Shown piece by piece: positions 60,578 through 64,000 of a stretch of DNA of 64,000 bases (position 1 is its first letter; each line of letters starts with the position of its first letter). The notes below the pieces were generated by a model. That model was given only the letters and a program-made list of their open reading frames with translations, did no database searches and had not been told where the DNA came from. Source of the DNA: Arcobacter sp. EP1. GTDB lineage: Bacteria > Campylobacterota > Campylobacteria > Campylobacterales > Arcobacteraceae. The DNA is taken from assembly GCA_001655195.1 (NCBI GenBank), contig LPNY01000139.1, positions 31,424-95,423 of the forward strand, given 5' to 3'. The position numbers were made by a program, and so were the translations under genes.

Positions 60578-60738
60578 AATACTCTAATCAATTGCCCCTT
60601 TTTATCCCCTTTTTTCTTCTACTGATCATAACCTATGCATCCATCAAAAGCGACACTCTTTTTTCTTAAAACTGTTGTAATATTTAATAAAACTTAGTTA
60701 TAATAATTAATACTCCTATAAAAGTGAGAATAAAGAGT

Positions 60739-62532
60739 ATGAAAATATTTAATACCCCTTTAACTAAACGATATATCCCTGCAGTATCTTTAATTGCACT
60801 ATTTATTATAATTACCAATATACTCAATACCAATTCTATTAGTTCAAATAAAGAGTATGGAAAAATCATTAATATCAGTGGTAAACAACGAATGTTATCT
60901 CAAAAACTGGTGATTTTGGGAATGAATTATCTTGCCCATAAAAATAGTCACTCTCAAAAAGAGTTAGAAGATGCAATTACTGAAATTAGTAATAGTCACG
61001 ACTATCTTTTAACAAAAAGTTTTACCCAAGAATTAACGGATATTTATTACATAGAGAAACTTGATAGTGAGTTGAAGTACTATATTAGTAATTTTGAACG
61101 ACTACTCGTAACCCATGATGAAGCATATTTGCATAATGCTAGATTATCCTCTAATATGATACTTGCAAAACTTGATCGCGCTGTAAAAGCTTATGAACGA
61201 CACGCAAATCAGCAGCTTGAAACAGTACTAAGTTATGAATTTTATTTAATGGTACTAACTCTGTTTGTTTTGTTATTAGAAGTGTTATTTATTTTTAAGC
61301 CAGCTGCAAAGAAAATAGAGGCGGACAATATTGAAATAACCAATCAAAAAGAGTATGTAGAAGCAGTTATTGAATCAAATAACAATGCTATTATTGCTAT
61401 TGACGGAACTTCTAAAATTACAACCTATAATAAAAAAGCACAAGAGATGTTTGGTTGGACAAAAGAGGAGATGCTTGGAACAAGAAAGCTTTCTCTTATT
61501 ATCCCAAATAAGTATAAAACAGCACATGATAAAGCATCAAATACTTATTTACATAGTGGAGTTTCTTGTGGTATTTTAGGGGGAGCACATGAGTTAGAGG
61601 CCCAAAGAAAAGATGGTACAGTTTTTCCCATTGAGATATCTTTTGGGTCTAAGTATAAAGCTGAAAACTCTATTGTTATTGCCAATATCTCTGATATAAC
61701 GTTAAAAAAAGAGAATGAGAATAATTTAAAACTACTCAATGAATCTTTAGAACAAAAAGTGAAAGATCGAACAAAAGAGTTAGAATTTTTAAATACAAAC
61801 TTAGAAAATATTGTACAAGAGAAAACAGACCAAAATACCAAACAGTTAGAAATCCTACAGCAACAAAGTAAAATGGCACAGATGGGTGAAATGATTGGTG
61901 CAATTGCTCATCAATGGCGACAACCTTTAAATGAATTAGGCATTAATATTCAAAAGTTGAAATATAACTATAAAGCAAACGAGATTGATGAGAATTTTAT
62001 AAAAGCATTTATTGATAAAAATAAAAAAACGATACAGTTTATGAGTAATACCATTGATAATTTTAGGAACTTTTTCCGTGTGGATAAATCAAAAGAGAAC
62101 TTTAGCGTAAAGAAAGCCATAGAAGATACTGTATCTATGCAATCATCACAATTAAATAGTCATGATATTGCTTTAAGTATTCACGGTGATGACTTCATTG
62201 TAGAAGGCTTTCACAGTGAATTTCAACAAGTTATTTTAAACATAATTAATAACGCTAAAGATGTACTAATTTACAATAAAATAGATACACCTAAAATTGA
62301 AATAGTTCTAGAGAATGAATCTTTAAGGATAGGTGATAATGGTGGAGGAATACCACAAGATATCATCAATAGAGTCTTTGAACCTTACTATACGACAAAA
62401 GAACAAGGTAAGGGTACAGGCATAGGTTTATATATGTCAAAAATGATTATTGAAGATAACATGAAGGGTAAACTTTTTGTTGAGAATAAAAATGGGGGAG
62501 CATCGTTCTTAATACGTTTAAGTCAAAAGTGA
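60739..62532 (+). CDS. PilJ-like/PAS sensor histidine kinase
   Basis: The 597-residue kinase has an N-terminal membrane helix (about 14-32), a periplasmic domain of the type IV pili methyl-accepting (PilJ-like) class with ISGKQRMLSQKL, and a second helix (about 168-190). Next come a PAS domain (about 215-330, with TTYNKKAQEMFGWTKEEM), a coiled coil, and a kinase core with His391 in AIAHQWRQPLNE, NIINNAKDVL and the GTGIGLYM box. The ATG at 60739 is preferred over the GTG at 60724. The receiver-kinase hybrid follows 39 bp later, so they may work in one relay. Confidence 0.9.
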   Translation: MKIFNTPLTKRYIPAVSLIALFIIITNILNTNSISSNKEYGKIINISGKQRMLSQKLVILGMNYLAHKNSHSQKELEDAITEISNSHDYLLTKSFTQELTDIYYIEKLDSELKYYISNFERLLVTHDEAYLHNARLSSNMILAKLDRAVKAYERHANQQLETVLSYEFYLMVLTLFVLLLEVLFIFKPAAKKIEADNIEITNQKEYVEAVIESNNNAIIAIDGTSKITTYNKKAQEMFGWTKEEMLGTRKLSLIIPNKYKTAHDKASNTYLHSGVSCGILGGAHELEAQRKDGTVFPIEISFGSKYKAENSIVIANISDITLKKENENNLKLLNESLEQKVKDRTKELEFLNTNLENIVQEKTDQNTKQLEILQQQSKMAQMGEMIGAIAHQWRQPLNELGINIQKLKYNYKANEIDENFIKAFIDKNKKTIQFMSNTIDNFRNFFRVDKSKENFSVKKAIEDTVSMQSSQLNSHDIALSIHGDDFIVEGFHSEFQQVILNIINNAKDVLIYNKIDTPKIEIVLENESLRIGDNGGGIPQDIINRVFEPYYTTKEQGKGTGIGLYMSKMIIEDNMKGKLFVENKNGGASFLIRLSQK

Positions 62533-62571: not shown

Positions 62572-63714
62572 ATGCATAATGATATAACAATATTGTATGT
62601 AGAAGATGAAGTGGGAATTAGAGAGAGTTTAAGTGGCTTTTTGGATTTTATGTGTAATAAACTCTATATAGCAACAGATGGAGTACATGGTTTAGAGCTC
62701 TATAAAGAACACACTCCTGATATTGTTATTTCAGATATAAAAATGCCAAAGATGAACGGTATTGAGATGGCAAAATCCATGAAAGCCATAAATCCTAAAC
62801 AACATATTATTTTTACAACAGCCCACAGTGAAAGTAGTTATTTCATTGATACCATAGAAATGCATGTGGATGGTTATATTTTAAAACCTGTTGATTTAGA
62901 GAAATTAGAAGATAAAATAGAGAATATCATTGAGTATATACGACTTAAAAGAGATTATAAAAAACAGCAAGCTATGTTAGTACAATCTGAAAAGATGGCC
63001 TCTTTAGGGGAAATGTTTAGTAATATTGCCCACCAATGGAGACAACCATTATCGGCTATTTCCACTTGTGCTTCTGGTATTCAGTTACAAAAGGATGCAG
63101 GCAGTTTAAGTGACGAATACATTGATGCAACCTGTGAAACAATAACACAAAAAGCCCAATATCTATCAGGAATAATTGATGAGTTTAATGATTTCGTTCA
63201 TGATAAGTCAATTAAAAAAGAGTCTAATATAAAAGAGATCATTAAAAGTGCTTTGCTGTTTTGCGAATTGAATAACCAAAACAATAATATAAAAATAGTC
63301 GATAGTTTAGATGAGAATATAAGGCTTCAAACCTATCCTAATAAATTAAAACATGCGCTTATTAATATTTTGGATAATGCAAAAGATGCTTTATGTCAAA
63401 AAGGAGATGTTCTTGATACTATTATTGAAAACAGATATATTTTTCTAACTCTAAAAAAAGAAGAAAATGAGATAGTTATTGTAGTAAAAGATAATGCTGG
63501 TGGAATACATGAAGATATTATAACAAAAGTCTTTGAACCTTATTTCACAACAAAACATCAATATATTGGTACAGGACTTGGATTGTATATGACTTATAAT
63601 ATGGTCAAGGAGAATTTAAACGGTAAGATTCAAGTGACTAATACCCAGTTTGAATATAAGGATAAAACTTATTGTGGAGCAGAGTTTAAAATTACTCTTC
63701 CTCCTTTAAGCTAA
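62572..63714 (+). CDS. Hybrid response regulator-histidine kinase
   Basis: The 380-residue protein starts with a receiver domain (VEDEVGIRESL, phospho-acceptor Asp55 in IVISDIKMP, Lys in ILKPVD) followed by a kinase core with His154 in NIAHQWRQPLSA, NILDNAKDAL and the ATP lid region GTGLGLYMTYNMV. No membrane segment is present, so it is cytoplasmic and probably receives phosphate from the upstream PilJ-like kinase. It is convergent with the small RNA at the end of the window. Confidence 0.9.
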   Translation: MHNDITILYVEDEVGIRESLSGFLDFMCNKLYIATDGVHGLELYKEHTPDIVISDIKMPKMNGIEMAKSMKAINPKQHIIFTTAHSESSYFIDTIEMHVDGYILKPVDLEKLEDKIENIIEYIRLKRDYKKQQAMLVQSEKMASLGEMFSNIAHQWRQPLSAISTCASGIQLQKDAGSLSDEYIDATCETITQKAQYLSGIIDEFNDFVHDKSIKKESNIKEIIKSALLFCELNNQNNNIKIVDSLDENIRLQTYPNKLKHALINILDNAKDALCQKGDVLDTIIENRYIFLTLKKEENEIVIVVKDNAGGIHEDIITKVFEPYFTTKHQYIGTGLGLYMTYNMVKENLNGKIQVTNTQFEYKDKTYCGAEFKITLPPLS

Positions 63715-63718
63715 CCAT

Positions 63719-63747
63719 AAAAAAAGGCCCTTCAATGAAGGACCTTT
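63719..63747 (-). terminator. Rho-independent terminator at the 3' end of the small RNA
   Basis: On the minus strand AAAGGTCCTTC (63747-63737) pairs with GAAGGGCCTTT (63733-63723), containing one G-T wobble, and continues as a T7 run ending at 63719. On the plus strand the wobble becomes an A-C mismatch and no T-run follows, so it works for the minus strand. Confidence 0.85.
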
Positions 63748-63843
63748 GACTATCTTTAAAGTTAGAAAATCTTTCTCTAACTTAGCCACTTACTAGGTAG
63801 CTTTTTTATTTTCAATGTTTAACAATATCAAGAGATAATTGTT

Positions 63844-63867
63844 CTACCAATGTAGAATTCCTGTCAT
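63844..63867 (-). CDS. Seven-codon ORF inside the small RNA (MTGILHW)
   Basis: ATG at 63867 is preceded by GGAGG (63877-63873) with five bases of spacing and ends at TAG (63846-63844). Its stop codon lies in the TTCTAC/GTAGAA hairpin. Translation is plausible because of the strong ribosome-binding site, but the peptide may be incidental. Confidence 0.4.
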   Translation of the reverse strand: MTGILHW

Positions 63868-64000
63868 TGAGACCTCCGTATTGTTTGGATTATAAAATTA
63901 TACCATGGAATACGATTAAAATAAAATTAAAAGAGTTCACTATAAATAAAAAACTCTTTAAAACTACGATTTTATCGATATTGTAACAAATATTCATATT

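Follow-up and report, generated by a model that had tools for sequence, protein, structure and literature searches.

A segment of about 172 nucleotides on the minus strand of Arcobacter sp. EP1 (63719-63890 in the window, the whole 64,000-nucleotide stretch of DNA that was analysed) almost certainly belongs, judging from its relatives, to a real and conserved family of small RNA (sRNA) genes that was previously uncatalogued. The comparative evidence shows an RNA gene, its structure and the conserved start and stop signals of a very short open reading frame (mini-ORF) whose peptide is not conserved; transcription, actual translation, gating of the RNA and any target are what we infer beyond this. 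A small RNA with a translated-looking mini-ORF had been proposed by a sequence-only reading of this DNA, and the promoter, Shine-Dalgarno (SD)-ATG pair, hairpins and terminator that are conserved in relatives argue for that proposal.

Architecture and conservation of the small RNA gene

The elements that the sequence-only reading had listed, namely TATAAT, GGAGG-ATG, a 7-codon ORF encoding MTGILHW, hairpins and a terminator with seven T residues, are all present when the minus strand is read directly. The -10 box TATAAT lies at 63897-63902 and transcription is predicted to start at about 63890-63886, while a 5' segment, AACAAUAC, stands between TATAAT and GGAGG. The 5' arm of helix P1 (AACAAUA, 63879-63885) pairs in the alignment with a 3' arm (UAUUGUU, 63821-63827), and between them lie the SD GGAGG (63873-63877), predicted to be masked in a 5' hairpin, and, 5 nt past it, the ATG (63867-63865) of the mini-ORF (ATG ACA GGA ATT CTA CAT TGG TAG, 63844-63867). 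The stop codon of this ORF sits inside a small hairpin, UUCUAC-AUUG-GUAGAA (63842-63857), as had been noted earlier; this hairpin occurs only in the window species and in genus g14. Further 3' come hairpins H2 (AGCUAC...GUGGCU, 63784-63802) and H3 (AAGUUAGAGAA...UUUUCUAACUU, 63759-63783), both supported by compensatory changes, and an intrinsic terminator (63719-63744) made of a stem (63744-63726) followed by 7 T (63725-63719). The same signals recur in homologs: TATAAT was found in 34 of 46, mostly 17-21 nt 5' of GGAGG, an extended TGn element in 32 of 46, and 43 of them have at least 5 consecutive T residues close to the 3' end.

Folding analyses gave -43.7 kcal/mol for the minus strand (z = -4.34), a value equalled by none of 200 shuffled sequences, versus -34.7 kcal/mol for the plus strand (z = -1.77), which upholds the earlier use of G-U pairs as an internal sign of the strand. 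Covariation was scored in A3, a MAFFT alignment of 21 sequences, and in A4, which holds 44 distinct sequences fitted to the covariance model and is thus biased towards the structure of that model. In A3, 93% of the cells pair and compensatory changes occur at 10 pairs in 42 cells, a cell count that was matched by none of 500 shuffles. Pairing fell to 43-48% when the partners were slid by one column, a control that favours the structure because part of it had been chosen from A3 itself. In the model-fitted A4, 18 of 27 pairs covary, with 98 compensatory cells. The earlier reading had made its RNA depend on hairpins and a terminator being conserved in related genomes, and had suggested looking for compensatory changes there: hairpins and terminator are both conserved, and compensatory changes are present in both alignments. 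Most of them fall in H2 (3 of 6 pairs in A3, 6 of 6 in A4) and in H3 (7 of 9 and 9 of 9, respectively), indicating that structure, not sequence, is what is maintained in these hairpins. P1 is paired in 94% of the A4 cells, with mostly one-sided G-U changes and both-sided changes at 3 pairs. Outside the 5' domain, we found no sequence-conserved unpaired seed, so that base-pairing targets are unclear.

Of the 104 genomes of the bacterial family, at least 47, distributed over 11 genera (by our count), carry homologs of about 155-178 nt. When 60 relatives were searched at the nucleotide level, two genomes had full-length matches of 68-69% identity, located between groEL and glmS, and a third one had a partial match adjoining groEL. 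A pattern made from the 5' box matched 32 of the 104 family genomes; on inspection, most of these proved to be the same RNA, complete with promoter, hairpins and terminator, besides some chance matches inside genes in a few cases. The covariance model R1, built from 21 of these pattern homologs with the window sequence left out, found the window copy in a whole-genome scan (63.9 bits, E 3e-6) and picked up further homologs 3' of groEL, and a second covariance model that included all homologs found additional members. Two copies of the sRNA are carried by G018 (L098, L106), G032 (L099, L107), G002 (L101, L108), G022 (L167, L184) and G034 (L171, L185). Between the two copies in G018 and in G032, the 5' domains are much more similar than the sequences of H2 and H3, which hints that the functional core is the 5' domain. 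Genus g12 adds four probable divergent members (L126, L139, L144 and L148) beyond these 47 or more genomes, in which the P1 arms have changed to GUAAC/GUUAC, with AUAGGAG as a second purine-rich box.

A scan of named genomes recovered assemblies of Arcobacter caeni, of other Arcobacter and of Aliarcobacter, as well as a single Campylobacterales assembly, and the model matched each of them. In unrelated phyla, the exact-pattern hits were not matched by the model and hence were set aside as chance. Among about 400 genomes of the order, the one match outside the family (G142, E 0.03) looks like chance as well, because the SD-ATG box is missing. As seen in these genomes, the sRNA family appears confined to Arcobacter relatives, provisionally so since the order-wide scans were strictly filtered and missed some family members.

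A conserved start and stop without a conserved peptide

GGAGG, exactly 5 nt and a start codon (44 ATG and 2 TTG) were found in all 46 tabulated homologs, more than half of which had been detected with patterns containing GGAGG and ATG and the remainder with structural models. The later homologs G012, G109 and G022b share the 5-nt spacing, with GGGGG in G012, and G069 has a spacing of four. Among the 46, the ORF has 7 codons in 30 homologs, 12 codons in 12, 15 codons in two, and 6 or 13 codons in one each, bearing in mind that a short ORF by itself proves nothing in AT-rich DNA. The stop codon is TAG or TAA in every member of the 7-codon class. In a class that has lost one base and whose frame is thereby shifted, the old stop site is mostly TGG, TAT, TAC or TGT, and a replacement in-frame stop lies just beyond P1. 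A stop that is kept in frame, and that is decayed and replaced after a shift, bears the marks of a used frame, an argument with few independent events behind it.

The peptide behaves differently. No purifying selection on it was detected in the homologs, with synonymous fractions of 0.17 and 0.08 compared to about 0.22 expected. The most variable position of the mini-ORF codons is the middle one, the last residue of the 7-codon peptides is F, S, W, I or T, and what similarity there is lies mostly in codons pairing with the SD or with P1. From these comparisons, selection seems to act on the start and stop codons and not on the peptide. In g12, GGAGG, P1, H2 and H3 are kept, and the ORF has 7, 3 or 0 codons, showing that it is largely lost in this genus and not essential in all family members.

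The SD is predicted to be masked in most homologs. For the SD, partition-function folding of the 5' domain gave a mean unpaired value of 0.15, against 0.40 when the flanks were shuffled, the real value being the lower one in 43 of 46 homologs; the start codon had a value of 0.53. The predicted partner strand of the SD is CACUUUU or CACAUUUUU in most homologs, ACUUCU in G013-like species and CUCU in the window species. We also considered an RNA thermometer (fourU-like): the masking of the SD is U-rich, and its predicted openness changes little with temperature, going only from 0.09 to 0.19 between 4 and 45 C. We also looked for a conserved second fold that releases the SD and so would give a clean switch: the hairpin UUAGU/ACUAA, which had seemed good by eye in several species, was rejected for lack of support, its mean z being about 0 over 42 homologs.

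We tentatively propose that translating the 7-codon ORF is itself the functional act, the peptide drifting freely, and that ribosome loading on the masked SD may gate the folding, stability or activity of the RNA, an idea that we would sooner expect to fail than to hold. An alternative would be that the RNA is a base-pairing sRNA in which GGAGG-AUG mimics an initiation site, acting as a decoy that draws ribosomes or another sRNA, without any useful translation. This fits with the conserved portion being the SD-start region and its hairpin, with the GGAGG of g12 that is kept without a consistent ORF, and with the unconserved peptide; nevertheless, the ATG to TTG swaps and the stops that are kept only in frame point to real translation, and a masked SD fits a decoy poorly. 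We hold this alternative to be unlikely. More improbable still would be a small mRNA that functions through its peptide of 7-12 residues, as a signal or a regulator. The conserved SD, start and short frame would suit it, and a 7-codon gene has a precedent in microcin C7 (PMC11955535), but the variable second codon positions, the synonymous fraction lying under expectation and the confinement of similarity mostly to codons that pair with the SD or P1 all argue against it, and genes for processing or export do not recur as neighbours. Looking for features of microcin C-type heptapeptides, we found neither a C-terminal Asn nor, by inspection, any recurring neighbour encoding an MccB-type adenylyltransferase.

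Comparison with known RNA classes

The sRNA ends right next to the stop codon of a histidine-kinase gene that lies on the opposite strand (62572-63714), and 5' of its promoter lie a divergent gene and then glmS. From reading the translations, the divergent gene looks like suhB and its neighbour like glmS. In the window, two tandem sensor histidine kinase genes (60724-62532 and 62572-63714) stand between groEL and the sRNA; in G013, G030 and G089, the sRNA comes immediately after groEL. No conserved co-directional downstream gene was found near the homologs, whose neighbours are convergent or varying.

This arrangement bears on a further alternative, that the RNA is a cis-regulatory 5' UTR, such as a leader-peptide attenuator. 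Such leaders share with the Arcobacter sRNA a strong SD, a mini-ORF overlapping a hairpin, a terminator and an apparent indifference to the peptide, recalling amino-acid leader regions in particular, and in G017 a same-strand SMR-type transporter gene does lie 3' of the sRNA. However, unlike attenuators, the sRNA controls no downstream gene: in the window and in most homologs, what follows is either an unrelated gene or a convergent one (groEL or a histidine kinase), and the peptides have no run of a single amino acid. The sequence-only reading had already denied that this was an attenuator of a downstream operon, and with no gene read through and neighbours that are unrelated or convergent, we agree; this alternative is already largely refuted and very unlikely.

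The RNA also matches no catalogued family, again as had been suggested. Rfam models at the gathering score gave no match over the whole window and a sensitive local scan gave nothing significant (best E 0.05, far under the cut-off of that family), 6S RNA being included at both gathering and lax thresholds. No tRNA or tmRNA was found in the window. The 6S model (RF00013) matched neither in the window nor in the whole genome up to E 10, and instead of the closed 6S rod with paired ends and a central bubble, separate hairpins are seen here: the 5' end of the sRNA pairs with about nt 64-70 and its 3' end is the terminator. Genome G000 has no detected 6S, although 6S is known to adjoin purD elsewhere in the phylum, lying upstream of this gene in C. 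jejuni and H. pylori (PMC3847290). Standard models detected neither Hfq nor CsrA in genome G000. That the RNA titrates a protein, either as a GGA sponge for CsrA (ANGGA precedes the SD in 29 of 46 homologs) or as a divergent 6S RNA (its length is within the 6S range), is hardly credible, given that CsrA was not detected in the genome, that the GGA is paired and not in a loop, that 6S is not matched, that the ends do not pair as in 6S and that the 6S RNAs of C. jejuni and H. pylori sit upstream of purD.

With its own promoter, an intrinsic terminator, a conserved structure and no linked downstream gene, the RNA has the attributes of a trans-encoded sRNA. It resembles dual-function sRNAs (SgrS/SgrT, Spot 42/SpfP, VcdRP, SR1/SR1P) in being an independent sRNA that has its own promoter and terminator and bears a short ORF with an SD. 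The SD, start and frame are conserved in 46 of 46 homologs (not in g12); yet the peptides of these dual-function sRNAs are conserved and functional, whereas the Arcobacter sRNA conserves the frame only, without purifying selection on the peptide, its ORF has only 6-15 codons and Hfq was not found. The Arcobacter sRNA thus fits neither with dual-function sRNAs, for want of peptide constraint, nor with attenuators, for want of a downstream gene.

Within the phylum, the closest counterpart with experimental support is CJnc110 of C. jejuni, which carries CJsORF23 and 24 (10 and 15 aa), both experimentally translated, and whose status as an sRNA or a small mRNA is unsettled (PMC11955535). Both are intergenic RNAs of the same phylum with very short ORFs, translation having been seen for CJnc110; no homology between them was found, and order-level scans gave no homolog of the Arcobacter sRNA outside its family. 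A survey of Arcobacter sp. L examined 38 intergenic regions, most of the remaining novel, Arcobacter-confined ones being left without a name (PMC6429828). Nothing equivalent to the present sRNA was found in main-text passages of that survey or in Rfam 15, and the sRNA may be among these unnamed RNAs.

A putative ribosome-gated 5' domain

Given that neither a linked gene nor Hfq or CsrA was detected, the simplest reading is that of an Hfq-independent RNA with a 5' hairpin that competes with ribosomes. Our preferred explanation, held at slightly below even confidence, is that this is a standalone Hfq-independent sRNA in which the masked ribosome site and the mini-ORF make up a ribosome-gated 5' domain. 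Its own promoter and terminator would yield a trans-encoded transcript, with a 5' domain in the form of a hairpin, made of P1 and a G-U-rich P2, that would hold a very strong ribosome-binding site. The SD would be paired with a U-rich or CU-rich strand inside or just past the mini-ORF, leaving the start codon more exposed. Opening of the 5' hairpin, by a ribosome or a partner RNA, would then lead to translation of a frame, usually of 7 codons, that would end before or just beyond the closing helix. Ribosome occupancy, rather than the peptide, would set the state of the RNA, by exposing or hiding the P1 strands and/or by protecting the 5' end from decay, while any regulation of other RNAs would not need Hfq.

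Few sRNAs are conserved in Campylobacterota; the only ones shared by C. jejuni and H. pylori are reported to be 6S and other stable RNAs (PMC3847290). An sRNA found across at least 11 genera of one family is a tractable regulatory RNA for this lineage. Its conserved start and stop codons around an unconserved peptide offer a test of whether translation of an sRNA mini-ORF matters apart from the peptide that is made. If our explanation is true, this would be a ribosome-gated sRNA in bacteria with no detected Hfq or CsrA.
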